From Pontiella desulfatans (GTDB lineage Bacteria > Verrucomicrobiota > Kiritimatiellia > Kiritimatiellales > Pontiellaceae): a stretch of DNA of 64,000 nt. Where the stretch lies: NCBI RefSeq assembly GCF_900890425.1, contig NZ_CAAHFG010000001.1:1860001-1924000 (forward strand), read 5' to 3'. Positions within the stretch are counted from its first letter, which is position 1, and every line of letters starts with the position of its first letter. Of this stretch, positions 3,084 to 39,764 are shown piece after piece. The position numbers and the translations under genes were made by a program. The notes beneath the pieces are model-generated. The model was given only the letters and a program-made list of their open reading frames with translations, did no database searches and was not told where the DNA came from.

Positions 3084-4496
3084 TCACATCGAGTGGTCAT
3101 CGGCTGGCTTTCCTTTTTTTTCGGGGAGGTTGATTCCTTCCGCCTTCAGTCGCGCAACGAGGCTGGCTCGAAGTTTGCGCAGCGTTGCGGCATATTCGGG
3201 ATTAACGGCGAGATTGCTGAATTGTTTTGGATCTTTCTTCATGTCGTAGAGTTCTTCCGAACCATTCGTGTAGCGCATGTAGGCGAATTGGTTTTCGCGC
3301 AAGGAGAAGCCGTTGTTCAACGAAAGGGCTGCATCCCGGACGGTTGCACCGGGGTTGCGCAGCACTGGAACCAGGCTCTTGCCCTGCACGCTTGCAGGAA
3401 TTGGAAGCCCGGCCAGCTCGGCGAGGGTGGGGTAGATATCGACCAGTTCCGTCAGGGCGTCGGTCCGGGCGGGGTTGAAACCGGGCGCCGAGATGATGAG
3501 CGGCACGCGCGTGACCTCTTCATGGAGGTTGCTTTTTTGCCAAAACGTATGCTCGCCGAGGTGGTAGCCGTGGTCGCTGAGAAAAACGATCGCGGTGCTG
3601 CTGCGCAGTCCGAGCCGGTCGAGCTCGTCGATGATGCGCCCGACCTGCTCATCCATGAAGGTGACGGTTGCATAGTATGCCGACCACATGCGCTTCTGGT
3701 TGTCGGGATATTGCCCAATGGGATTGGTGGCGTTCTTTGTTTTGGCCAGTCCGGCTTGCGGAATGTCGTCGAGGTCGTTCACGGGCACCTCCGGCAGTTC
3801 GATCCCTTGCCATGGGTAGGGTGCGAAATAGTGCTCCGGCGCGACGTTCGGATAGTGCGGGCGCACCAACCCAGCGGCGATGAAAAACGGTTTGTCTCCA
3901 TGCTTGCGCAGTAGCTCGATGGTTTTGTCGGCCGTTTTATGGTCCGGTTGATCGGAGCCGTCGCCTTCGTAGCTGACCGAAACAAACATCCGGTTTTTCA
4001 TTTTAGTCGATTCACGCCCCTCCAGCTCGGTCGTGAAAATGTTCTGGTTCAGGCAGGCATAATCCCCCGGCGTGTGGGCTTCCATCCCTTGGGAGTTGAA
4101 GCGCTCCGTCCAGGAGCTGGCCACGTCGGCGCCATGGGTGCCATCGATAATGTCGCCGGGCACGCGCATGTGGTAGATCTTCCCGACGCGCGCGCTGTAC
4201 CAGCCCTTGTTTTTGAAGTGCTCTGCCAGGTTGATGCCTTTGTCATCCGTATAGCGGCTATACATGAACGACTGCCGGGAAGGCGCGCACCATACCCCCT
4301 GGCAGTAGGCGCGACTGAACACCAGACCTTCACGTGCCAGACGATCGAGGTTGGGCGTTTGGCACACCTCGTCGCCATAGCAACCCAGCACGCTCGCCTT
4401 AAGGTCGTCGGAAACAAGTAGCAGCACATTGCGAATTGAACCGCTGTAGGCAGGCAGCACAACCGCAAGGGCCAAGGTGGCGAGGAGCAGGCGCAT
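3084..4496 (-). CDS. secreted sulfatase, iduronate-2-sulfatase-like (family S1)
   Basis: A 470-residue sulfatase. ATG at 4496 was chosen because it starts a clean signal peptide (RLLLATLALAVVLPAYSG) preceded by GAGGG. The longer open frame upstream only reads the HAD gene out of frame. After VLLLVSDDLKAS (metal-binding Asp30-Asp31) comes CAPSR at residues 70-74, the Cys-type formylglycine motif needing an anaerobic or FGE maturase. The later GKIYHM, FLSDHGYHLGEH and HTFWQKSNLHEE blocks are those of iduronate-2-sulfatase-like enzymes. It should remove sulfate esters from a polysaccharide in the periplasm or outside the cell. It starts 13 bp after the HAD gene stop, in the same unit. Substrate is not deducible. 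Confidence 0.93.
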   Translation of the reverse strand: MRLLLATLALAVVLPAYSGSIRNVLLLVSDDLKASVLGCYGDEVCQTPNLDRLAREGLVFSRAYCQGVWCAPSRQSFMYSRYTDDKGINLAEHFKNKGWYSARVGKIYHMRVPGDIIDGTHGADVASSWTERFNSQGMEAHTPGDYACLNQNIFTTELEGRESTKMKNRMFVSVSYEGDGSDQPDHKTADKTIELLRKHGDKPFFIAAGLVRPHYPNVAPEHYFAPYPWQGIELPEVPVNDLDDIPQAGLAKTKNATNPIGQYPDNQKRMWSAYYATVTFMDEQVGRIIDELDRLGLRSSTAIVFLSDHGYHLGEHTFWQKSNLHEEVTRVPLIISAPGFNPARTDALTELVDIYPTLAELAGLPIPASVQGKSLVPVLRNPGATVRDAALSLNNGFSLRENQFAYMRYTNGSEELYDMKKDPKQFSNLAVNPEYAATLRKLRASLVARLKAEGINLPEKKGKPADDHSM

Positions 4497-4509
4497 GCCC
4501 TCGACCCGG

Positions 4510-5493
4510 TTAACGACGCTGCTTGATTTTTTCAAGCAAGGCTTCGAAGTCCTCGACATATTGCTTGCAAAGGCCGCGGGTGCCGGACTGGTCGATGTTG
4601 CCGCCGCCGATGCCCCAGGGCTGCATACCGGCCAGCAGGATGGAGCAGATGCCCGCGCCGCTGTCTTCGATGCCGATGGCGGAATGGCGCTGGCTGAAAT
4701 CCATACCCAGTCCGACACGCATCGTTTCGGCGTAGAGCCACGGGTGGGGTTTGGGCGAGAGTTCGCCGAGCGTTCCGGCTTCGCCTTTGCGCAGCGCGTG
4801 GCCGGCGGTGATGATGGCATCATAAAAGTCGGCGGGGTCGCCCATGCCGAGCGTTTTGAAGGCATCGAGGATTTCTGGATAGGCTTTTTCATATAAACCA
4901 GACGTCACCAAACCGATTCGCATGTCCATGTTTTTTAATTCGAGCAGGAACTCCTTGATGCCGGGCGATGGGCGGAAGGCGCCGGGCTTGCCCTTGCCTT
5001 CAAGGATCAGCTGCATTTCGCGGTGCGTGTGTTCGAAATAATAGGTGCGAGCTTCCTCTACCGTTTTTTCCGGACAATATTTCGTGACGCAATATTGCAG
5101 GTGTTCGGAAACCGAGTGGCCGGAAACATAGGGGAGGTCGGATTCTTCGAGTTCAAAGCCTGGATTGCCCAGCAGGCTGGCGGTACTGAGTTGGATGATC
5201 CAGATCCAGAATTCCTCGCTATGCACGGTGGTGCCGTCGAGATCCATCAAAACGGCGGTAATCGGATCTTCCCGCTCCACGGAATGGACCGGATAGTAGG
5301 CCGGGTAACCCAGCGCCGAATTCACCAGCGCCATGGTTTGGTCGGAAAATCCAATGAACTCCACTTTTCCATCACCGGTCTTGCCAATGGCCTGAACGCC
5401 GTTGGTTCCCGTGGTAAAGCGGTGGTCAGAGGTTTGTTTCAGTTCGTTGAGACCGAGCGACTCGATCGTGGTTCCTAGCTCCGGAAATTGCAT
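4510..5493 (-). CDS. HAD-superfamily hydrolase (beta-phosphoglucomutase/phosphatase-like) with N-terminal extension
   Basis: A 327-residue HAD protein. The catalytic motif DLDGT (Asp84, Asp86) is preceded by an unusual region of about 80 residues with no recognised domain. Motif II is GLVTSG, motif III is the SPKPHPW lysine, and motif IV is GIEDSGAG. A large helical cap lies between motifs I and II, as in beta-phosphoglucomutase and sugar-phosphate phosphatases. It is cytoplasmic, with no signal peptide. As first gene of the minus-strand unit next to sulfatases and a GH38 enzyme, it probably handles a phosphorylated sugar from the same glycan. Mutase versus phosphatase cannot be decided from sequence. 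Confidence 0.85.
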   Translation of the reverse strand: MQFPELGTTIESLGLNELKQTSDHRFTTGTNGVQAIGKTGDGKVEFIGFSDQTMALVNSALGYPAYYPVHSVEREDPITAVLMDLDGTTVHSEEFWIWIIQLSTASLLGNPGFELEESDLPYVSGHSVSEHLQYCVTKYCPEKTVEEARTYYFEHTHREMQLILEGKGKPGAFRPSPGIKEFLLELKNMDMRIGLVTSGLYEKAYPEILDAFKTLGMGDPADFYDAIITAGHALRKGEAGTLGELSPKPHPWLYAETMRVGLGMDFSQRHSAIGIEDSGAGICSILLAGMQPWGIGGGNIDQSGTRGLCKQYVEDFEALLEKIKQRR

Positions 5494-5600: not shown

Positions 5601-8405
5601 ATGAATAAGAAAACCGCTTTAGTTGTTGCACACACGCACTGGGACCGCGAATGGCGCTACCCGATCTGGAAAACCCGCTCGCTATTGATCGAATTCATGG
5701 ACTGGCTGATCGATATTCTGGAAAACGACCCGGCATACGACAGTTTCCTGCTCGATGGCCAGACCGTCTGTGTTGACGATTATCTGCAAGTCCGCCCCGA
5801 AAACCGCGACCGCATTGCCGCACTGGTCAAGGCCGGCAAGCTGGTGGTTGGGCCCTGGTACACGTTGCCCGACCTCTTCCCGATTTCCGGCGAATGCCTC
5901 GTGCGCAATCTACAGACCGGCATCCGGTTCGCGGAGGAACTCGGCGGCTACAACCCGATTGCCTACCACACCTTCGGCTGGGGGCAGACCGCGCAGTTCC
6001 CGCAGATTTACCAGGATATTGGCATTCACTATGCCGTTGCCGCCAAAAAAGTTTCCGAAGAGCGCGCGCCCAACAGCGAATTCATCTGGACGGCGCCGGA
6101 CGGATCGGAGCTGCTGACCTCGCGCCTCGGCCACTTCACCCGCCAGAACGGCTATTTCTATCTGCACTTCCCGGTTCGGCTGAACAATATCTACGACGAC
6201 AACCAGTATGCCTGGGAGTGGGGCAAAACCGGCGTGGCCTACCACCGCGCCGACGAAAACAATTATCAGAACGACTATTTCCGCATCGACCATGAAGATG
6301 GCTACTTCAAGGAAAACGTCAAAGATGCCGCGCAGCGAACGTGGGACAACATGGACAAGACGCTGGTCGACGACTGGCGCCTGCTGATGTGCGGGTGCGA
6401 CTTTTCGACTCCCAATCCCTATCTGCCGCGGATGGTGAAGGATTGCAACGAAGCGCTGCCGGAGATCGAGTTCCGGATGGCCTCGCTGAAGGAATATTTC
6501 CAGGGCGTGGAGGAGCGGCTCGACCGATCCATCGTACCGGTGGTCCATGGCGAGCTGCGCGATGGCGAGCCAAGCCATGCCTCCGCCAACGCACTGGCGA
6601 CCCGTATTCACATCAAGCAACTGAACAAACAGGTTGAGAACGTGTTCATGCGCCGGATGGAACCATTGGCCGCATCGCTTTCCATGCTGGGCGAAACCTA
6701 TCCAACGAACTTTATCGGCAAGGGCTGGAACTATCTGCTCAAAGCGCACCCGCACGATTCCATCAACGGTGTCACGCAGGACAAGACCGTGGTGGACAAC
6801 CTCTATCGCCTCAACCAGGCGCTGGAAATCGGGGAAACCATCTATGAAGATTCCATTGCCGCGTTGCTGAAGCGCCTGGATCTTTCCGCCTTCGGGCAGA
6901 CCGACACGCTGTTGCTGCTCCACAACCCACAACCGCGCCCGGTGCGCGAGGTGGTCAAGGTGGCCATCGACACGCCGCGCTCCGAAGACTGCTGGACGCT
7001 GGGCGTGGTCGACGCGGACGGCACCCGTCTGGCGATCCAGGAAATCACGCGCGATGAGCACAAGCAACCCGTGCACGATGTCGAGGCGCGGCCGTGGCCA
7101 TACTATGTCGACCGTCATCAGCTCTATCTCGACACCGGCGAAATCCCGGCCGGCGGCTACAAGATCGTCAAGGTGGTCAACGAACGAACCTATTGGCGAG
7201 AGGAGGAGTGGTGGCCGGCCATGCGCAAGAGCGCCGGCGGCTTCATCGGGCAGGGTGCCATGAAAATGGAAAACGCATTCCTGAAGGTGGAGGTGAATTC
7301 CGACGGAACCTTCAACCTGACCGACAAGTCGAACGGCCGCACCATCGAAAACATGCACCACTTCGAAGACGAAGGCGACACGGGCGACTACTGGGCCTAC
7401 TATGCACCCTATAAAAACCAGGCCATCACCAGCCGCGGCTTCGGTTCGCGCATCTGGATGGAGGACAACGGCCCGCTCAGCGCGACCATCGGCATTGAAA
7501 CCATCATGAAGGTTCCGGCCCATGCGGAATACGGCAACGTCAAGGTGCAGGGCTACGGCAAGCGGTGCGATCGCCTCGTGGACCTCAAGATTGTTTCACG
7601 CATCACACTCAACAAGGACAGCAAGCACCTGAAGGTGAAAACCTCCATCGACAATACCGCCAAGGACCATCGCATACGCCTGATGATCCCGACCGACATC
7701 CAGACCGACTTCTCGGATGCAGCCGGACACTTCACGGTTGACCATCGCGGCATCGTCCACGAAAAGGATGCCGATGGAAAATTCTACCCCGAAATGGCGC
7801 TGCGCCCGATGAGCGTCTTCTGCGACGCGAGCGATGGCACCAACGGAATGGCCGTACTCAATAACTGCCTGACCGAATTCCAGCTGCTTGAGGATGACCG
7901 CGGGACGATCGCATTGACCCTGCTGCGCGCCATCCGCAACCGCATTTGCACCGAGTCGCGCGTTTCATCCGAATTCCCGGAAGCGCTCGGTAGCCAGATG
8001 CTCCAGACGGTGGACTATGAATATGCGATCTATCCGCACGCCGGAAACTGGGCCGAGGGCGCCGTCTACGCCGAGGCCGACAAGCTGAACGCCAAGCCGG
8101 CAGTCACCCAGATTTCCATGAACCGCGGTGGCGACCTGCCAACGGTGGCCTCGCACTATGCCATCGACAACGATGCGCTGGTGCTTTCCTCCATCACCAA
8201 AACGCATGGCCGCAATTCCCTGATGCTCCGCCTGTTCAACCCGACCGGCGAAACGCAGGAGGGCACGGTCAAGTTCGGCCTCCCGGTTTCCAAGGCCTGG
8301 AAAAACAACCTGATCGAAACGCGCGGGGAGGAGTTGGAGCTACTGGACGGCGCGGTTGCGCTCTCTGTCCCGAAGGGTCGGATTGTGACGATTGAAGTGG
8401 AGTGA
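5601..8405 (+). CDS. glycoside hydrolase family 38 alpha-mannosidase homologue, nucleophile position altered
   Basis: A 934-residue cytoplasmic GH38 protein. ATG at 5601 follows GAGGAAAC and begins just before the conserved HTHWDREW (zinc ligands His13 and Asp15). The upstream in-frame start at 5526 lies in the promoter. PWYTLPD...SGE near residue 85 and the HDSINGVTQDKT block (zinc His) are present, followed by the beta-sandwich C-terminal half. The segment that normally carries the nucleophile/zinc Asp (P-D-x-F-G...AQxPQI) reads A-Y-H-T-F-G-W-G-Q-T-A-Q-F-P-Q-I, so the Asp is His123 and two residues are inserted. GH38 enzymes normally release alpha-mannose; this variant may act differently. 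It heads the plus-strand unit with two sulfatases (next ATG 3 bp after its stop). Confidence 0.9.
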   Translation: MNKKTALVVAHTHWDREWRYPIWKTRSLLIEFMDWLIDILENDPAYDSFLLDGQTVCVDDYLQVRPENRDRIAALVKAGKLVVGPWYTLPDLFPISGECLVRNLQTGIRFAEELGGYNPIAYHTFGWGQTAQFPQIYQDIGIHYAVAAKKVSEERAPNSEFIWTAPDGSELLTSRLGHFTRQNGYFYLHFPVRLNNIYDDNQYAWEWGKTGVAYHRADENNYQNDYFRIDHEDGYFKENVKDAAQRTWDNMDKTLVDDWRLLMCGCDFSTPNPYLPRMVKDCNEALPEIEFRMASLKEYFQGVEERLDRSIVPVVHGELRDGEPSHASANALATRIHIKQLNKQVENVFMRRMEPLAASLSMLGETYPTNFIGKGWNYLLKAHPHDSINGVTQDKTVVDNLYRLNQALEIGETIYEDSIAALLKRLDLSAFGQTDTLLLLHNPQPRPVREVVKVAIDTPRSEDCWTLGVVDADGTRLAIQEITRDEHKQPVHDVEARPWPYYVDRHQLYLDTGEIPAGGYKIVKVVNERTYWREEEWWPAMRKSAGGFIGQGAMKMENAFLKVEVNSDGTFNLTDKSNGRTIENMHHFEDEGDTGDYWAYYAPYKNQAITSRGFGSRIWMEDNGPLSATIGIETIMKVPAHAEYGNVKVQGYGKRCDRLVDLKIVSRITLNKDSKHLKVKTSIDNTAKDHRIRLMIPTDIQTDFSDAAGHFTVDHRGIVHEKDADGKFYPEMALRPMSVFCDASDGTNGMAVLNNCLTEFQLLEDDRGTIALTLLRAIRNRICTESRVSSEFPEALGSQMLQTVDYEYAIYPHAGNWAEGAVYAEADKLNAKPAVTQISMNRGGDLPTVASHYAIDNDALVLSSITKTHGRNSLMLRLFNPTGETQEGTVKFGLPVSKAWKNNLIETRGEELELLDGAVALSVPKGRIVTIEVE

Positions 8406-8408
8406 TTG

Positions 8409-10028
8409 ATGAACAGGCGTTCCTTTACCATGCTAGCCGCAAGTTCCGCGCTGGTGTCTCTTTCCGCGAAAGCGGTTAAGGGAAAGCGGCCGAACCTGCT
8501 CTTCATTATGACCGATCAGCAACGCTTCGATGCGTTGAGCCTGTCGGGAAACACGATCCTGAAAACACCGAATCTGGATCGGATTGGCAAGGAGGGCGCC
8601 TATTTTGAAATCTGCAATTCACAGTGTCCGGTGTGCGGCCCCGCGCGCAGCAGCCTGATGACGGGGCGCTCCGTGGAAAATTCGAAGGTGTTCACGAACA
8701 TGGATGCCGACATTGCGGACCGGACACCGATGCCGTGCTACGACGAGTTGCTGTCGGACGAGGGGTACCGCACCGAATACTACGGCAAATGGCATGCGCC
8801 TCTCGGGCGGGCGATGAAATACGACAACGCCGTAACGCCTGCCGCCTGCCATGAATGGGAGCGCGGCCCGGGCATGTCGAAGGAATACGAGGACTATCTC
8901 AACCAGCATGTGAAACGCACGAAGCTGTTCAACAATCCGGAATATGCCAATACCGGATGGCAGGAGCAGACGTTCGACCACCGCCCCTACAAAACCAACC
9001 CGCTCGATACCCGGCACGGTATGGAGCCCGGAATCAAGGTGGATGAAAACGGTGAAAAACTGAAAGTGGGGCAACCGGACCAGCATGGCATCTCGACCGT
9101 GCCGAAGGAGCACACCATTACGGCCGTGCAGGCCAAGATGACGTTGCAGGCGCTGGAGCGGTTGGCAAAAAGGGACGAACCGTTTTCGCTGCATTGTTCG
9201 TTCCACTGCCCGCATTCACCCATCACGCCCTCGGAGCCGTATGCTTCCATGTATAAGCCGGAGGCCATGCCGGTGCCGGTTAGCATTGATGATCCCATGG
9301 ACAACTCGCCGTACATCAATGAAAACGGACGCAAGCGGTTGCCGCAGTATCGGGATCGGGAAAAGATCAAATACATGATCGCGAATTATTATGCGCTGGT
9401 GAAGGAGATCGATGTTTGGGTGGGCGGGATTCTCGACAAGCTCGACGAGCTGGGGCTGGCTGACGACACGATGGTTGTCTTTACTTCGGACCACGGCGAA
9501 ATGCTCGGTGCCCACGGCATGCGCGAAAAGAATATTTTCTATGAAGAGTCGGTTCATGTTCCGCTCATGATCCGTTTCCCCGGCCGCATCAAGGCCGGAA
9601 GCGTGGTGGCTGCGCCGGTTTCGCAGATTGATCTTTACGCGACGATCCAGGATTACCTGGGGTCTGGGAAAACCGAATCCGACGGGGAAAGCTTGCGCCG
9701 CTACATCGAAAACCCGGCCGCCGAGCGGACGGCTTTTGCCGTATCCGAATGGAATTGGCGCGGCCCGGTGCAACCGAACCTGATGGTGCGGACGAAGGGG
9801 TGGAAATATTTCATTCCCAACACCGCCGACTCCAAGGTGATGAACGTGCTGTATGACCTGAAGAACGACCCGTTCGAGATGGATAACCTGCTGGGCAAAA
9901 ATCCCGATGCAGAAAACCACCGCAAGCAGGCCGAGTTCATGAAAGACCTGCTCGTCCAATGGCTGGAAAAAACCAAGTCCCCCCATTTGGAAGCGGTGAA
10001 GAAACGTGATGCGGTCAAGGCCGGATAA
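8409..10028 (+). CDS. exported sulfatase (family S1)
   Basis: A 539-residue sulfatase. ATG at 8409 is preferred to TTG at 8406. The N-terminus NRRSF followed by an alanine/serine-rich hydrophobic run looks Tat-type. The metal site begins NLLFIMTDQQRFDAL. The formylglycine motif is CGPAR at residues 76-80 within CPVCGPARSSLMTGR, and the FTSDHGEMLGAHG metal block follows near residue 360. It starts 3 bp after the GH38 stop, so translation is coupled. It probably desulfates the glycan that the GH38 homologue then trims. The exact S1 subfamily was not assigned. Confidence 0.93.
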   Translation: MNRRSFTMLAASSALVSLSAKAVKGKRPNLLFIMTDQQRFDALSLSGNTILKTPNLDRIGKEGAYFEICNSQCPVCGPARSSLMTGRSVENSKVFTNMDADIADRTPMPCYDELLSDEGYRTEYYGKWHAPLGRAMKYDNAVTPAACHEWERGPGMSKEYEDYLNQHVKRTKLFNNPEYANTGWQEQTFDHRPYKTNPLDTRHGMEPGIKVDENGEKLKVGQPDQHGISTVPKEHTITAVQAKMTLQALERLAKRDEPFSLHCSFHCPHSPITPSEPYASMYKPEAMPVPVSIDDPMDNSPYINENGRKRLPQYRDREKIKYMIANYYALVKEIDVWVGGILDKLDELGLADDTMVVFTSDHGEMLGAHGMREKNIFYEESVHVPLMIRFPGRIKAGSVVAAPVSQIDLYATIQDYLGSGKTESDGESLRRYIENPAAERTAFAVSEWNWRGPVQPNLMVRTKGWKYFIPNTADSKVMNVLYDLKNDPFEMDNLLGKNPDAENHRKQAEFMKDLLVQWLEKTKSPHLEAVKKRDAVKAG

Positions 10029-10039
10029 AAGGATTAGCG

Positions 10040-11470
10040 ATGAAAAAAACAATGGTACTGGTTTTAGGTTCGGCATTGGCGGTTTCGGCTTGGGCGAAGC
10101 CGAATGTGGTGCTGTTCATGGCGGACGACTTCGGAGCGGGGAGCATCAACGCCTTCGGGGCTCCTGAGGATTTGGTGAAAACACCCCACTTGAACCGGAT
10201 GGCGGATTCCGGCATGCGGTTCACCAATGCCAACACACCGGCATCCATCTGCTCGCCGACGCGCTATGCGCTGCTGACCGGGCGCTATGCCTGGCGCGGA
10301 CCGTTGCCATTCGGCGTGGTGAACGTCTTCGACCCAATGGTGGTCGAAACGGATCGCATGACGATGCCGAAATATTTCCGGACCATGGGATACTCCACCG
10401 CCCAGATCGGCAAATGGCATTTAGGCTATGGCGACCGGAGGCCGGCGGTGTTCACCGAAAAGCTGACGCCGGGGCCGAACGACCTCGGTTTCGATTATCA
10501 CTTCGGCCTTCCGCAAAACCTGGACGACATGCTGCGCGTCTGGATTGAAAACGATGGCGTCCATGGGTTGCGCTCGGACAAGTTGAGTCCCTATGCGAAG
10601 AGCTTCTACGGCCAGCCGTATGTCGGACTCGACGCTCCGCAGCGCAGTCGCGAGGAAGCCAGCGAATTCCTGACCGAAAAGGCGGTTGAATGGCTGGGCG
10701 CCCAGGATAAGGGCAAGCCGTTCTTCCTGTACTTTGCCTCGCCCGCCACTCACCATCCGATTGTCCCCTCCGAGCGCATGCGCGGCAAAAGCAACTGCGG
10801 GGCGTACGGCGACTTTATCCAGGATCTGGACTGGTCGTTCGGCCGGATCGTCCAGGCGCTGGACGGGATGGGGGTGCTAGACGACACCATCATTGTTTTC
10901 ACGTCCGACAACGGCGGCGATATCCCGAATGAAGAAACCCGTCCGGAGGGGCAGGCCATCAAGGCCGGACTGAAACCCAACGGTGGATACCGCGGCGACA
11001 AGCACACCATTTATGAAGGGGGTGCGCGCGTGCCATTGATGGTGCAGTGGAACGGAAAGGTGCCAGCCGGAAAAGTCTCGGATCGCATGGTCAGCATTGC
11101 CGACCTTTTCGCGACCCTCGCGGATGTCGTCAACGGGAAATCCGTGACGGTGCCGGACGCGATCGACAGTAGTAGTTTTGCGCCGACGCTGGCCGGCAAG
11201 AAGCAGCCGGTTCGCAAGCCGATGGTTTCCACCAATGCAGGGGGGCTGCAGGCGATTCGTTCCGGCAAGTGGAAATATATCGACGGAACCTTCCCTGAAA
11301 CCGCGCCTCAGGGTTTGCGCAACACGTTCAAGAAGGAGGCCGAGCCTGCCCTCTATGACCTTTCCAAGGATCCCGCAGAAAAGCGCAACGTGATTGCCGA
11401 CCATCCCGAGGTGGTTCAGGAGCTGCAGGCCGTGTTGGCCGACTATCGCGCGGGCAAGGGGGCCCGGTAG
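10040..11470 (+). CDS. secreted arylsulfatase A-type sulfatase (family S1)
   Basis: A 476-residue protein with an Ala-x-Ala-type signal peptide ending near residue 19 (SAWAK). The metal motif NVVLFMADDFG is followed by CSPTR at residues 71-75 in the canonical context ASICSPTRYALLTGRY. GKWHLG near residue 125 and FTSDNGGD near residue 290 complete the active site. The layout matches arylsulfatase A/GALNS-type enzymes. It lies 11 bp after the previous sulfatase and ends the plus-strand unit. Three different Cys-type sulfatases in one locus imply a substrate sulfated at several positions; the activating formylglycine enzyme is elsewhere. Confidence 0.93.
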   Translation: MKKTMVLVLGSALAVSAWAKPNVVLFMADDFGAGSINAFGAPEDLVKTPHLNRMADSGMRFTNANTPASICSPTRYALLTGRYAWRGPLPFGVVNVFDPMVVETDRMTMPKYFRTMGYSTAQIGKWHLGYGDRRPAVFTEKLTPGPNDLGFDYHFGLPQNLDDMLRVWIENDGVHGLRSDKLSPYAKSFYGQPYVGLDAPQRSREEASEFLTEKAVEWLGAQDKGKPFFLYFASPATHHPIVPSERMRGKSNCGAYGDFIQDLDWSFGRIVQALDGMGVLDDTIIVFTSDNGGDIPNEETRPEGQAIKAGLKPNGGYRGDKHTIYEGGARVPLMVQWNGKVPAGKVSDRMVSIADLFATLADVVNGKSVTVPDAIDSSSFAPTLAGKKQPVRKPMVSTNAGGLQAIRSGKWKYIDGTFPETAPQGLRNTFKKEAEPALYDLSKDPAEKRNVIADHPEVVQELQAVLADYRAGKGAR

Positions 11471-36137: not shown

Positions 36138-39100
36138 CTACGGGTTCACAACCCGAAGCACGTTGCCGGCGGTCGCCTTGATGCGGTAAAAGCCTTCCTG
36201 CTGCGACTCCGGCACCACCTCGACATTGTTGGTTCCGCCGCTTCCGCCGAAACGCTTCAGCACGTTCCATTCGTTGGTCAACGACGGTGTGTATTCAACC
36301 CAATAGACGCGGCCGGACGCCGTTCCGACCGACAGCATGCTGTGCAGCATGCCGCCGTCCAGCCAATTGCTGGTTCCCCAGCCAAATCGACTGCCCGCAT
36401 CGTCCGGGCGGGTGCCGAAAACATATTCCGCATAATCGGAATAGCCGTCGCTGTCGGCGTCCGCAACCGTATTGCTGACCGATGCATTCAACGAATAAAG
36501 CTGTTCCCAATCATCCGGTAGGCCGTCGCCATCGGAATCTTTCGAGAATGGAGCGCTGTCAGACATATCGTTCACGCCATCGCCGTCCGCATCGTTCAAC
36601 GCCGGATCATCCACCACTATCTCCGCCTTGATGCGGTAATATTGGTTTTCGAATGCCGCCGCATCCGGATCGATCAGCAGCATATTGGTGCCCGTTCCAA
36701 AAAACCGCACCAACTCCACCCAATTGGATGTTGTCAGATCGTCCGTTCCTTCGATGGCATACCACCGCTTTTCGCACGACCGCACATCCAGCTTCATGCC
36801 GCCTTCCAGCATCCGGCACTCCAGCACCCGCCCATCCAAACCATTCGTCGGACTGGTGCCAAAAACATATTCCATAAAATTGCTCTGACCATCACCATCC
36901 GGATCCGCATCGCGCCCCATCTGCGTCGCGGAATATCCGCTTCCGGCGAAAGCTATGGACTGCCATGTAACATAGGGATCAAGAGCGGGAATCATCTCAC
37001 ACGGATATCCCTTCCACGTCGGTGTGGTGAATCCTTCCGCGCCTTCATAAAAACAGACCTTGAAACCGGATGCTGCGCCATCAAACACACTCGAACCAAA
37101 CTCTGTCGGCGCATCCCCAGTAAAGGTCGCGTTCGTCAGGCTGTCACAACTTAAAAATGCACCGTAGCCGACGTTGGTTACACTAGAACCAACGATCACG
37201 CTCATTAGGCTGACGCAATCTCTAAACACAAAGCTGCGGAAAGAGGTAACACTGTCGGGAATAATGATGCTCTCAAGACTGGTGCACCTTTGAAACGCAT
37301 CGGAGCCGATGCAGGCGACACTGTCTGGAATGATGACATTTGTTAGGTTAGTGCAAAACTGAAACGTGCTATCACTAATGGCGGTGAGACTAGCCTCGAT
37401 CATGACGTTCGCAAGGCTATCGCATCCACTGAACGCATATTCGCCAAGTTTGGTGACACTGGCGGGAATGGTGACACTCGTTAGACCGTCGCATCCACTG
37501 AACGCATATTCGCCAAGACTGGTTACGCTGGAGGGAATGGTAACGTCCATCAGATTGTTGCAGCCATAAAACGCACTGCGGCCAATGGTGGATACGCTAT
37601 CGGCGATGTTAATGGACGAAAGGCTGTCGCAGTTGGAAAACGCTCTCTCTCCGATATGGGTAACGCTGGGGGGAATCATATAGCTCGTGTCGCTGATTCC
37701 GGCAGGATAGCCGATGAGCTCATCCCGGTTTTTGCTGAATAAAACGCCGTCCACACTGCAGTAAGCTGGATTGGCCGCATCGACACTAATATGCATAAGG
37801 CTGGAGCAAGAGTTAAAGGGGTTATATCCAATGGTCGTGACACTATCGGGAATGGACACGCTTGTCAGACTCCAGCACTCGCCAAACGCTTCATTACCGA
37901 TGTTCGTGACGCTAGTTCCAATCATGATGTTCGTCAGGCCAACAGAGTAGAAAAACGCCCACTCACCGATAGTCGTGACGCTATCGGGAATGATGACATT
38001 CGTCAGATTATCGCAACCGGAAAATGCATCTCTACCAATAGTGATAACGCCGGAGGGGATGGTCACGTCTGTCAGACGATAGCAACAAAAAAACGCACTG
38101 TTTCCGATCGCTGTGACCGGATACCCTTCAATGGTGGAAGGAATGGCCAGCGATCCCAAAGTACTCCAATCGCAGTCCATAATGGTGACTTCACCATCGG
38201 TTATGCTCCATTCCAGCACGGACAATGCATCCAGAATGGGAACCAGCATTTCGCAGGGATAGCCATTCCACTCCGGTGACGTGAATCCTTCTGCCTCTGC
38301 ACCATATTGAATAGTAAAACTGGTTGGGGTGCCCGCAAATACATTAGCTCCAAAGGAACTCGGCGCATCACCGGCAAAGGTCGCGTTCGTCAAGCTGGAA
38401 CAATAACTGAAAGCGGAATCGCCAATGTTGGTGACGCTGGCAGGGATCGTCACACCGGTCAGATCATCACAATGGCGAAACGCCCAGTCGCTAAGGCTTG
38501 TAACCGGATAACCTTCAATGGCAGAGGGGATGACGAACGAACCGGACGCACTGGCATCGCAGTCCGTGATGGTTACCTCACCATTGGAAATGCTGTATAG
38601 CACCTCGCCAACAGGCTGATTGAAGGCCCAAAGAATTGGATAGTCGCCATTCATTGCCCAGATCTCAACAAAATCCCAGCCAACGAACGTGCCAGGCCAT
38701 TGCATATCGGCCGTCGACCGAGCATTGCCCCCATCGCTAACATTAAGCCCCGAAAGCTCCGCATCCCAAAAACAGTTAGCAATAGTATCCCCCGATCTTC
38801 CGCAAAATCCTCCATTGCCATCGCCACCAGAAGCCGTACCGGTCGAGTAACAGTTTTCTATCCTTGCCTTGCTGTAATAATTTACACCGCAGAAACCTCC
38901 AACATAATCATTGTTACCAGCCACTACCCCCTGAGCATCACCAGTAGCGTAGCAGTTTAATATGGTAGAAGCAGACGACGTTGTTGCCTCGTTTTTTCCG
39001 CAAAATCCTCCGGCAGCCTGTCCTCCCCGCACAGATCCCGTGGCGAATGAATTCCTGATCATTCCATGGTAGTTATATCCACAAAGACCTCCGGCGGATA

Positions 39101-39764
39101 GCATCCCCCAATAACCATCATAATAAACCGACCCCGATGCGAAACAGTATTCGATTGTCCCCAAATTCCACCCGCAAAGGCCGCCGACATGTGTCTTATA
39201 GCCACCCTTCACCGAACAGGTTGCAGAGCACCCGGCAATCCAACCATAATTCTCGCCACAAATCCCTCCCACATGTCTCGTCGATGTACTGGAAGAAGAG
39301 TAGCGAACTTCTCCGTCCCCAACATGACAGTTCACAATCTGACCATAATTAAACGCACATATCCCCCCTCCGTTTGCAGAACTTGTAAAATCGATGGCTT
39401 CTACGCCCAGGTTTCTGACGGTTGCGTCATAATAGATAGAGCCGAATATTCCGCCGAGCGTGTCACGAAGGGTAACATTGCGAAGTACATGCCCACCGCC
39501 CTCAAAGACACCCTCGAACCGGGAAGCACCTGTGCCAATGGGAGTCCAGTAACGTCCCGAAAGATCGATGTCAGCAGTTAGTCGAGTATAATTACCCTCG
39601 CCCCAATAAGCCTCGTTAGAAGCATACGCTAAAAGGTCGTCCCGATCCTCGATCAGGAATGGATTACCTATCGTACCGTAACCGGGTATATTTCCGTTAG
39701 CTGCATTCGCCTCCATGTAAGATGATAGCACCACCAAACTGCAAATCATTTTCCAGATATTCAT
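36138..39764 (-). CDS. large secreted surface protein: GLUG repeats, LRR_5 repeats and calcium-binding-type C-terminus
   Basis: A 1208-residue protein. It has a signal peptide of about 21 residues, then GLUG-type repeats (GGICGENYGWIAGCSATCS-like, about 100-370), found in bacterial adhesins. From about 385 to 905 there are BspA-type LRR_5 repeats with the 23-residue pattern DSVTTIGxxAFxxCxSLT; several are near-identical, including two adjacent units about 69 bp apart at 37400-37545. The C-terminus has DxDGDGxxD motifs near 990 and 1085-1130, typical of calcium-binding surface linkers, and ends without an anchor I recognise. It is probably an adhesin or surface glycan-binding protein. Codon usage is less GC-rich than in neighbours. 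Confidence 0.85.
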   Translation of the reverse strand: MNIWKMICSLVVLSSYMEANAANGNIPGYGTIGNPFLIEDRDDLLAYASNEAYWGEGNYTRLTADIDLSGRYWTPIGTGASRFEGVFEGGGHVLRNVTLRDTLGGIFGSIYYDATVRNLGVEAIDFTSSANGGGICAFNYGQIVNCHVGDGEVRYSSSSTSTRHVGGICGENYGWIAGCSATCSVKGGYKTHVGGLCGWNLGTIEYCFASGSVYYDGYWGMLSAGGLCGYNYHGMIRNSFATGSVRGGQAAGGFCGKNEATTSSASTILNCYATGDAQGVVAGNNDYVGGFCGVNYYSKARIENCYSTGTASGGDGNGGFCGRSGDTIANCFWDAELSGLNVSDGGNARSTADMQWPGTFVGWDFVEIWAMNGDYPILWAFNQPVGEVLYSISNGEVTITDCDASASGSFVIPSAIEGYPVTSLSDWAFRHCDDLTGVTIPASVTNIGDSAFSYCSSLTNATFAGDAPSSFGANVFAGTPTSFTIQYGAEAEGFTSPEWNGYPCEMLVPILDALSVLEWSITDGEVTIMDCDWSTLGSLAIPSTIEGYPVTAIGNSAFFCCYRLTDVTIPSGVITIGRDAFSGCDNLTNVIIPDSVTTIGEWAFFYSVGLTNIMIGTSVTNIGNEAFGECWSLTSVSIPDSVTTIGYNPFNSCSSLMHISVDAANPAYCSVDGVLFSKNRDELIGYPAGISDTSYMIPPSVTHIGERAFSNCDSLSSINIADSVSTIGRSAFYGCNNLMDVTIPSSVTSLGEYAFSGCDGLTSVTIPASVTKLGEYAFSGCDSLANVMIEASLTAISDSTFQFCTNLTNVIIPDSVACIGSDAFQRCTSLESIIIPDSVTSFRSFVFRDCVSLMSVIVGSSVTNVGYGAFLSCDSLTNATFTGDAPTEFGSSVFDGAASGFKVCFYEGAEGFTTPTWKGYPCEMIPALDPYVTWQSIAFAGSGYSATQMGRDADPDGDGQSNFMEYVFGTSPTNGLDGRVLECRMLEGGMKLDVRSCEKRWYAIEGTDDLTTSNWVELVRFFGTGTNMLLIDPDAAAFENQYYRIKAEIVVDDPALNDADGDGVNDMSDSAPFSKDSDGDGLPDDWEQLYSLNASVSNTVADADSDGYSDYAEYVFGTRPDDAGSRFGWGTSNWLDGGMLHSMLSVGTASGRVYWVEYTPSLTNEWNVLKRFGGSGGTNNVEVVPESQQEGFYRIKATAGNVLRVVNP

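Follow-up and report, generated by a model that had tools for sequence, protein, structure and literature searches.

A conserved GH38-derived branch without the catalytic nucleophile, tentatively read as α-mannoside phosphorylases

How might a GH38 protein act on its substrate if the aspartate that serves both as nucleophile and as zinc ligand in this family is missing? This question is raised by a gene in the window, i.e. the 64,000-nucleotide stretch of Pontiella desulfatans DNA analysed here, which lies among the following genes:

3084..4547, minus strand: sulfatase on the HAD side; start codon provisional, the open frame extending to 4892
4510..5493, minus strand: HAD-superfamily protein, weakly β-phosphoglucomutase-like, conserved partner; divergent from the GH38 gene across a 107 bp gap
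5601..8405, plus strand: GH38-like protein without nucleophile, 934 aa; intact ORF
8406..10028, plus strand: sulfatase immediately downstream of the GH38 gene
10040..11470, plus strand: second sulfatase

The protein encoded at 5601–8405 is a member of GH38 by sequence and fold. It carries the Pfam GH38 N, middle, C and C2 domains in order (95.6, 33.3, 71.6 and 34.8 bits, all above cut-off), the same four found in the GH38 enzymes of S. pyogenes (SpGH38; 2wyh/2wyi) and E. faecalis (3lvt/5kbp), and with such scores routine annotation would name proteins of this kind α-mannosidases. The sole NCBIfam match at 0.001 was the mannosylglycerate hydrolase MngB (NF007331, 406 bits), from which the protein differs both in scoring far under the 1138-bit cut-off and in the absence of the nucleophile. 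The N-terminus (MNKKTALVVAHTHWDREW) shows no signal peptide obvious by eye, and the protein is therefore probably cytoplasmic. AlphaFold2 gave a mean pLDDT of 51.9 for the full-length protein and 71.2 for residues 1–432, within which loops 124–131 and 385–395 fell below 50, so that no pocket distances were taken. Searched with VIA-align, the N-terminal model returned GH38 entries at the top (2wyi, Z 28.6, rmsd 10.9 over 362 residues) and matched yeast 5jm0 with a Z of 22.1 (rmsd 2.6 over 260 residues), a predicted resemblance that we take to concern the fold only.

The catalytic block (IAYHTFGWGQTAQFPQI) aligns without gaps to 3lvt, 5kbp and 2wyh (phmmer), as it does in the profile alignment, and the two-residue insertion proposed in the initial annotation thus disappears. 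The canonical Asp column (D125 of S. pyogenes GH38) is occupied by Phe125, not by His123 as first suggested, and Trp127 stands where Phe127 is conserved in other GH38 proteins. Correcting the alignment did not bring an Asp back: the column still holds Phe, and the block contains neither Asp nor Glu. In a bridging homologue (L032, YTPSSWGQTGQLPQI) the canonical PDSFG-like pattern can be recognised, and its Asp column holds Ser. Across the nucleophile-less homologues residue 123 is His in 15, Thr in 12, Asn in 9, Ser in 6 and Glu in one, and because it varies, His123 is no conserved replacement ligand. The central observation of the initial annotation, that the usual nucleophile is missing, was borne out and extends to 43 of the 91 aligned homologues, which have Phe (32), Cys (5), Thr (4) or Ser (2) in this column; the other 48 are referred to below as Asp-type rows. 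The protein lacks the nucleophile and zinc-ligand Asp of the retaining GH38 mechanism, which, as described, is not usable by a branch without it.

A pseudogene or sequencing artefact was ruled out as the source of this loss, which is also found in three Pontiella homologues (L001–L003) and in a paralogue of the same genome, at 86–87% identity, and four comparisons show purifying selection on the gene (dN 0.07–0.15, dS 1.06–1.11, dN/dS 0.07–0.13). In a tree built after removing the columns of the residue changes, a single branch separated the nucleophile-less rows from the others (35 versus 37 rows, SH-aLRT 98), and the gene is a member of an old, conserved GH38-derived branch without the catalytic nucleophile. 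No relatives were found in the viral contigs searched, and the plasmid matches examined (two Deinococcus, Nonomuraea and Niallia; 4 of 131 records) were Asp-type.

The active-site positions compared across these rows are encoded on the plus strand as follows:

5637..5645, plus strand: His13 and Asp15 codons (Trp14 between), zinc ligands; each in 43/43 nucleophile-less rows
5973..5975, plus strand: Phe125 codon, column of the canonical nucleophile and zinc ligand Asp125 in the ungapped alignment
5985..5987, plus strand: Gln129 codon, invariant in the branch; 43/43 versus 7/48 Asp-type rows
6045..6047, plus strand: Lys149 codon, Arg149 beside the nucleophile in S. pyogenes GH38; Lys in 31 and Arg in 12 of 43
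6141..6143, plus strand: Arg181 codon, replacing the Tyr of this loop (probably SpGH38 Y192); Arg in 43/43
6399..6401, plus strand: Asp267 codon, general acid/base position kept; Asp in 42/43
6753..6758, plus strand: His385-Asp386 codons, zinc ligand and the Asp equivalent to SpGH38 D352; His in 42/43, Asp in 43/43

As the initial annotation had stated, the protein retains the other zinc ligands, namely His13, Asp15 and the His of HDS (His385). The branch still has three of the four protein ligands of the site, and zinc binding is predicted. Compared with SpGH38, whose zinc ligands include H13 and D15 (PMC2815779), the zinc-ligand positions H13, D15 and H351, the position of D352 and the acid/base position D232 are kept, the last as Asp267, a likely general acid/base; one row lacks the zinc His, and L027 has Ala at the acid Asp. 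The differences from SpGH38 are Phe for Asp125, Arg in the Tyr192 loop, Gln129 and Lys for Arg149. The Tyr of the Arg181 loop is present in 47 of the 48 Asp-type rows and is, by position, the one that hydrogen-bonds the nucleophile. Residue 19 is Arg in 36 of the 43 nucleophile-less rows and Tyr in 38 of the 48 Asp-type rows. A relocated carboxylate nucleophile was also considered and rejected: within residues 1–430 the sequence screen found no new Asp or Glu that the branch conserves and Asp-type rows do not, and only positions 457 and 745 passed a loose version of it. With the nucleophile gone across a conserved branch and matched changes nearby, there is good support for the possibility, raised in the initial annotation, of another mechanism.

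The HAD gene was detected in 21 of 29 branch genomes versus 3 of 259 others in the class sample (Fisher p ~2e-22; absent at 1e-5 in 8 of the 29), in the single Bacillota branch genome versus none of 298 others, and in 8 of 8 further branch genomes, with loci that lack it having either a sugar kinase in its place or neither. The HAD family linked to the branch is strongly conserved. At 0.01, its only PDB matches were two β-phosphoglucomutases, both weak (E 0.004 and 0.009), and a search with its family profile gave no PDB chain at 1e-6. Six HAD proteins scored 21–32 bits against TIGR01990 (β-phosphoglucomutase, cut-off 189.4) and do not appear to belong to this curated family. In the weak-match alignment, Val127 occupies the position of a β-phosphoglucomutase Arg that presumably has a role in those enzymes. 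Eight loci with the HAD but no adjacent GH38 were scanned for neighbours: four (L175, L177, L185 and L190) carry a GH78-like gene, GH2, or an FGGY or PfkB kinase, and the other four (L176, L179, L184 and L188) have no carbohydrate enzymes or kinases among the scanned proteins. Since half of these loci carry other carbohydrate enzymes or kinases, the HAD need not mean a sugar 1-phosphate. We rejected it as proof of phosphorolysis, given that branch genomes without it exist and that its gene also lies next to those of other carbohydrate enzymes or kinases.

The reading we favour, plausible if short of probable, is that the 5601–8405 protein works inside the cell as a zinc enzyme and splits α-mannosides with phosphate in the role of the missing carboxylate, i.e. 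an inverting phosphorylase; the substrate, the use of phosphate and the activity of the HAD are what we infer. A terminal α-mannoside would be bound on zinc inside the cell and its leaving group protonated by Asp267. Arg181, Lys/Arg149 and perhaps Gln129 would position inorganic phosphate where the Asp carboxylate used to be, and this phosphate would attack C1 from the β face in a single step, yielding β-mannose 1-phosphate, which the linked HAD might convert to mannose 6-phosphate. β-Phosphoglucomutase acts likewise on β-glucose 1-phosphate. The basic residues (Arg181 and Lys/Arg149, each 43/43) would lie near the attack site by alignment, in loops modelled with low confidence; a sulfate or carboxylate group on the substrate would be an equally good partner for Arg. 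According to PMC8950772, inverting phosphorylases need one catalytic acid, which suffices because phosphate itself acts; the pattern here, with Asp267 kept, Asp125 gone and no new conserved Asp or Glu in residues 1–430, would by sequence be compatible with such an enzyme. That the whole branch has passed from retaining mannosidases to inverting α-mannoside phosphorylases making β-mannose 1-phosphate, through loss of nucleophile and Tyr, gain of phosphate-binding Arg and Gln and a dedicated HAD mutase, is a more tentative proposal that we regard as somewhat doubtful. Phosphorolysis is favoured by the loss of the nucleophile along one branch, the invariant Arg181 and Gln129, the HAD linkage and the mannose-type neighbours of some loci. 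Counterpoints to phosphorolysis are the branch genomes without the HAD, its weak likeness to β-phosphoglucomutase, the kinase and isomerase loci, and the deviant rows.

Retaining hydrolysis by neighbouring-group participation offers an unlikely but coherent alternative, in which zinc and Asp15 would activate the mannose 2-OH to form 1,2-anhydro-mannose, opened by water with Asp267; with the 2-OH attacking, no enzyme nucleophile would be needed. Retaining α-mannanases of GH99, a different family whose endo-α-mannosidases cleave α-mannosides without an enzyme nucleophile, are described as working via 1,2-anhydromannose (PMC11403624). In SpGH38 the hydroxyls that correspond to mannose O2 and O3 are contacted by zinc, D15 and D352 (PMC2815779), and the branch keeps counterparts of all three. 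In three loci, the GH38 gene lies in a gene run with PfkB kinase, D-mannose-isomerase-like and mannitol-1-phosphate-dehydrogenase-like genes, a context that suits free mannose from hydrolysis. However, this route leaves the invariant Arg181 and Gln129 and the HAD linkage unexplained, and no zinc-dependent example was found among the literature matches listed.

We likewise consider it improbable that the proteins are inverting or otherwise altered hydrolases, in which a water molecule in the vacated space, on Arg181/Gln129 or zinc, would attack C1 of α-mannosides or of anionic (sulfated, uronic) relatives. The more positively charged site would fit, and 13 of the 34 neighbourhoods examined, that in the window included, have a sulfatase no more than 5.5 kb away; the other 21, among them that of the Bacillota copy L009, have none in this range. 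Mannose-type neighbours are also consistent with hydrolysis: a D-lyxose/D-mannose-isomerase-like gene and, in L161 and L162, a GH2 gene encoding mannosidase Ig domains suggest ordinary mannose in some neighbourhoods. Hence, the unusual, sulfated substrate raised in the initial annotation is only faintly indicated. Against a water-based mechanism, the screen of residues 1–430 showed no new residue that might act as general base. Moreover, a nucleophile-to-Ala variant of Drosophila Golgi mannosidase II holds substrates in crystal structures (PMC2815779, PMC7609781), so a protein that had merely lost this residue would not be expected to hydrolyse well.

The absence of the Asp that acts as nucleophile in the GH38 enzymes described in PMC2815779 and PMC7609781, and the variability of residue 125, would fit a pseudoenzyme that keeps zinc and sugar site without cutting, in a mannoside-binding or regulatory role. 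We judge this quite unlikely, as the acid position is kept in 42 of 43 rows and the zinc ligands in 42–43, two new residues are invariant, and several loci have sugar-processing neighbours. Finally, His123 as a new zinc ligand replacing Asp after an insertion, a version encouraged by the resemblance by eye of H-T-F-G to D-T-F-G and by the Glu of L009 at this position, is very hard to sustain given the gapless alignments, the bridging L032 and a residue 123 that is mostly Thr, Asn, Ser or Glu.

The favoured phosphorolysis has parallels in known families. GH65 phosphorylases have an (α/α)6 fold and are paired with β-phosphoglucomutase. The logic proposed here would be shared with the inverting enzymes of that family, in which an α-glycoside and phosphate give a β-sugar 1-phosphate (PMC8950772), then taken up by a HAD mutase, with the differences that GH65 acts on α-glucosides and that the HAD here is only weakly β-phosphoglucomutase-like. 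With GH130, a β-propeller family acting on β-mannosides, any likeness is one of working and implies no homology: basic phosphate-binding residues in phosphorylases, where hydrolases have carboxylates, separate the two activities (PMC4599007). In the GH38 branch the corresponding exchange runs toward the basic side. Neither a nucleophile-less GH38 branch nor a GH38 phosphorylase was found in the open-licence PMC literature among the matches listed, and GH38 is not among the families named in a 2022 review of 11 phosphorylase families (PMC8950772). If these proteins are phosphorylases, they would be a zinc-dependent addition to those reviewed families, on a GH38 fold, and could be used to make α-mannosides out of β-mannose 1-phosphate. 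A single branch that has lost its nucleophile throughout, and whose neighbouring residues have changed to match, amounts to a natural experiment on the conversion of a retaining glycosidase into something different.

Two adjoining genes of the window are considered here:

5601-8405, + strand: GH38-like gene, intact ORF of 934 codons
4510-5493, - strand: HAD-superfamily gene (HAD), weakly β-phosphoglucomutase (β-PGM)-like, with homologues adjoining nucleophile-less GH38 genes in several lineages

In the window GH38, each of the four Pfam GH38 domains scores above its cut-off, and they occur in order; its closest solved sequences by phmmer are the GH38 proteins of E. faecalis (3lvt, 5kbp) and S. 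pyogenes (2wyh). Its sole NCBIfam match at 0.001, mannosylglycerate hydrolase, scored 406 bits against a family cut-off of 1138 bits. GH38 entries topped the structural listing for a predicted model of residues 1-432 (mean pLDDT 71.2), including 2wyi (Z 28.6, rmsd 10.9 over 362 residues) and yeast 5jm0 (Z 22.1, rmsd 2.6 over 260 residues). No signal peptide was apparent by eye at the N-terminus (MNKKTALVVAHTHWDREW). Among named relatives, the nearest (86-87% identity) are Pontiella sulfatireligans and a MAG of P. desulfatans. For P. desulfatans and P. sulfatireligans, the type strains are reported to use fucoidan for growth and to have 521 and 480 sulfatases, respectively (PMC7356697); the genome studied here spans 8.66 Mb. 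Elsewhere in the window, a pectate-lyase-like protein (3-2351) and a 3-keto-disaccharide hydrolase domain protein (2354-2977) are encoded beside sulfatases, and the 1208-aa product of positions 36141-39764 combines GLUG motifs with leucine-rich repeats of the BspA type.

In the S. pyogenes enzyme (SpGH38), the zinc ligands are described as His13, Asp15, Asp125, and His351, with Asp125 equated with the nucleophile, Asp232 with the acid/base, and Arg149 and Tyr192 reported to act on Asp125 (PMC2815779); a matching residue set is described for S. pombe Ams1 (PMC7609781). The 2wyh chain was brought to this numbering by subtracting a 22-residue offset of our own calculation, after which His13 and Asp15 fall correctly. 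Because the phmmer alignment runs ungapped through the nucleophile block (IAYHTFGWGQTAQFPQI in the window protein vs YFPDTFG in the 2wyh chain), the Asp column corresponds to Phe125; the conserved Phe127 is Trp127, and His123 lies two residues upstream of the Asp column. A profile alignment gave the same ungapped placement, and a homologue about 30% identical (L032) reads YTPSSWGQTGQLPQI, which is canonical except that Ser occupies the Asp column. The initial annotation was correct in substance, the Asp being gone, but wrong in detail: His123 is not its replacement, and there is no two-residue insertion.

The window GH38 is not a lone mutant but a member of a conserved, remodelled GH38 branch. 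We aligned 92 GH38 homologues, the window protein included, drawn from a related-locus search, its own genome, phylum, and class, Bacillota, and plasmid records. A residue was present at column 125 in 91 rows: Asp in 48 ("Asp-type") and another residue in 43 (Phe 32, Cys 5, Thr 4, Ser 2). In a tree of 72 of the 92 homologues (trait-adjacent columns removed, LG+G4 without mixture, quick search, midpoint-rooted), a single branch separated 35 non-Asp from 37 Asp rows with a support of 98, SH-aLRT being the only measure. We read this as loss rather than gain, since the characterised GH38 enzymes consulted have the Asp and the non-Asp group is nested in the midpoint-rooted drawing. Judging by record titles, genomes with a branch member belong to Kiritimatiellota and Verrucomicrobiota, plus a single one in Bacillota (L009). 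Matches at 1e-60 were found in 21 of 299 Bacillota genomes; of the 20 besides L009, 19 could be typed and proved to be Asp-type without exception, and the last (L083) had no letter at the column. The genome itself holds two more nucleophile-less GH38 genes (C1:3509038-3511836, 87% identity; C1:2540097-2542925, 32%), along with an Asp-type GH38 at C2:1276590.

Comparisons of the window GH38 with three related loci (L001, L003, L004) and an own-genome paralogue yielded dN/dS of 0.07-0.13 (dN 0.07-0.15, dS 1.06-1.11). All 43 branch rows have Arg at column 181, where 47 of 48 Asp-type rows have a Tyr in the same loop, probably equivalent to SpGH38 Tyr192 judging by its position in close relatives (WYSN/WYNN). 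Gln129 is likewise universal in the branch (43/43 vs 7/48), column 149 is Lys in 31 and Arg in 12 branch rows (Asp-type: Arg 47, Lys 1), and column 19 is Arg in 36 and Leu in 7 (Asp-type: Tyr in 38/48). As initially proposed, the remaining zinc ligands are kept (His13 and Asp15 43/43, His385 42/43), as are Asp386 (43/43), Asp267 at the acid position (42/43), and Trp18 (34/43). A weighted screen of residues 1-430 found no Asp or Glu conserved in the branch yet not in Asp-type rows, which argues against another Asp taking over as nucleophile; positions 457 and 745 pass a looser screen. Taken with the dN/dS values, this pattern therefore indicates that a carboxylate gave way to added positive charge at a site whose positions for zinc, sugar contact, and acid were retained, and it does not look like decay. 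Individually, the L027 (L130) locus, on a 5.6 kb contig, has Ala for the acid/base Asp and an adjoining IS1595-type transposase, and may be decaying; in another branch member (L120), Leu replaces the zinc-binding His of the HDS block.

Across 34 branch neighbourhoods, HAD lay within 5.5 kb of GH38 in 13, a PfkB kinase in 8, both in none, and neither in 13, several of the latter being short contigs. Thirty were chosen on GH38 alone (HAD 13, PfkB 6, neither 11), and the other four (L161-L164) because their genomes lack HAD. A sulfatase was within 5.5 kb in 13 of the 34. At three loci (L128, L129, L164), one gene run comprises GH38, the PfkB kinase, and two further genes, which at L128, the one locus tested, matched D-lyxose/D-mannose isomerase (E 6.7e-6) and mannitol-1-phosphate 5-dehydrogenase (E 2e-16). 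The order at L161 is GH2, GH2 with mannosidase Ig domains, a carbamate-kinase-like gene, GH94 (top PDB match chitobiose phosphorylase), and branch GH38; at L162, GH38 is preceded by a similar GH2 and a gene of the amino-acid-kinase family, and L136 has GH94 directly upstream. An amino-acid-kinase-family gene thus stands among sugar genes ahead of GH38 in two genomes (L161, L162). The contexts at these few loci suit intracellular α-mannoside catabolism.

HAD is more conserved than its neighbouring GH38 in three comparisons (59% vs 28% at L137, 65% vs 34% at L133, 61% vs 41% at L009). Outside the Pfam match, it begins with a conserved extension of about 75 residues that contains the motif GYPAYYP; mean column identity is 71% over 11 sequences. 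Within the class, HAD (1e-50) occurs in 24 of 288 genomes and the GH38 profile (1e-150) in 35, namely 27 branch, 5 Asp-type by sequence, and 3 untyped (G591, G604, G544; counted as non-branch); 19 genomes have both. In two of the five HAD-only genomes, a GH38 piece cut by the contig end directly follows HAD; one reads YSPFGWGQISQLPQLY and is thus branch type, and the other, which stops before the block, was counted as branch by place and near-identical N-terminus. Overall, HAD is found in 21 of 29 branch genomes vs 3 of 259 others (Fisher p ~2e-22, an overstatement as the genomes are related). All eight further branch genomes had HAD, and among the 299 Bacillota genomes HAD and branch GH38 occur in the same single one. 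On the other side, eight of the 29 branch genomes had no HAD at 1e-5.

As neither a nucleophile nor a new base was found, we are left with three possible chemistries: attack by phosphate, participation of the mannose 2-OH, or attack by water. We tentatively favour phosphate (inverting phosphorolysis), at somewhat less than an even chance. Phosphate would attack in place of the lost enzyme nucleophile, converting α-mannosides to β-mannose 1-phosphate, for which a β-PGM-like HAD would be a fitting partner. However, HAD scores far below the β-PGM family cut-off, a search with its profile hit no PDB chain at 1e-6, and a single alignment places Val where β-PGM has an arginine. Four of eight scanned loci with HAD but no adjoining GH38 also place other hydrolases or kinases next to HAD (a GH78-like gene, a GH2, an FGGY kinase, and a PfkB kinase; L175, L177, L185, and L190), the kinase/isomerase loci fit free mannose, and the active-site loops are too poor in both structure models to place Arg181. 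Acid alone is described as sufficient for inverting phosphorylases (PMC8950772), and GH130 phosphorylases are reported to have basic residues at the attack site where hydrolases have carboxylates (PMC4599007); the branch shows such a swap, made towards the phosphorylase side. Alternatively, the mannose 2-OH may participate, by analogy with the mechanism reported for GH99 (PMC11403624); zinc and Asp15 already contact the equivalent hydroxyl in SpGH38 (PMC2815779), but Arg181 is left unexplained. Finally, water may be the attacking group.

Among the open-licence PMC papers listed for this topic, none was seen to describe a GH38 branch lacking the nucleophile or a GH38 acting as phosphorylase, which does not prove that no such paper exists. 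A GH38 branch that is conserved and remodelled, together with its HAD partner gene, is a larger matter than a single missing nucleophile.
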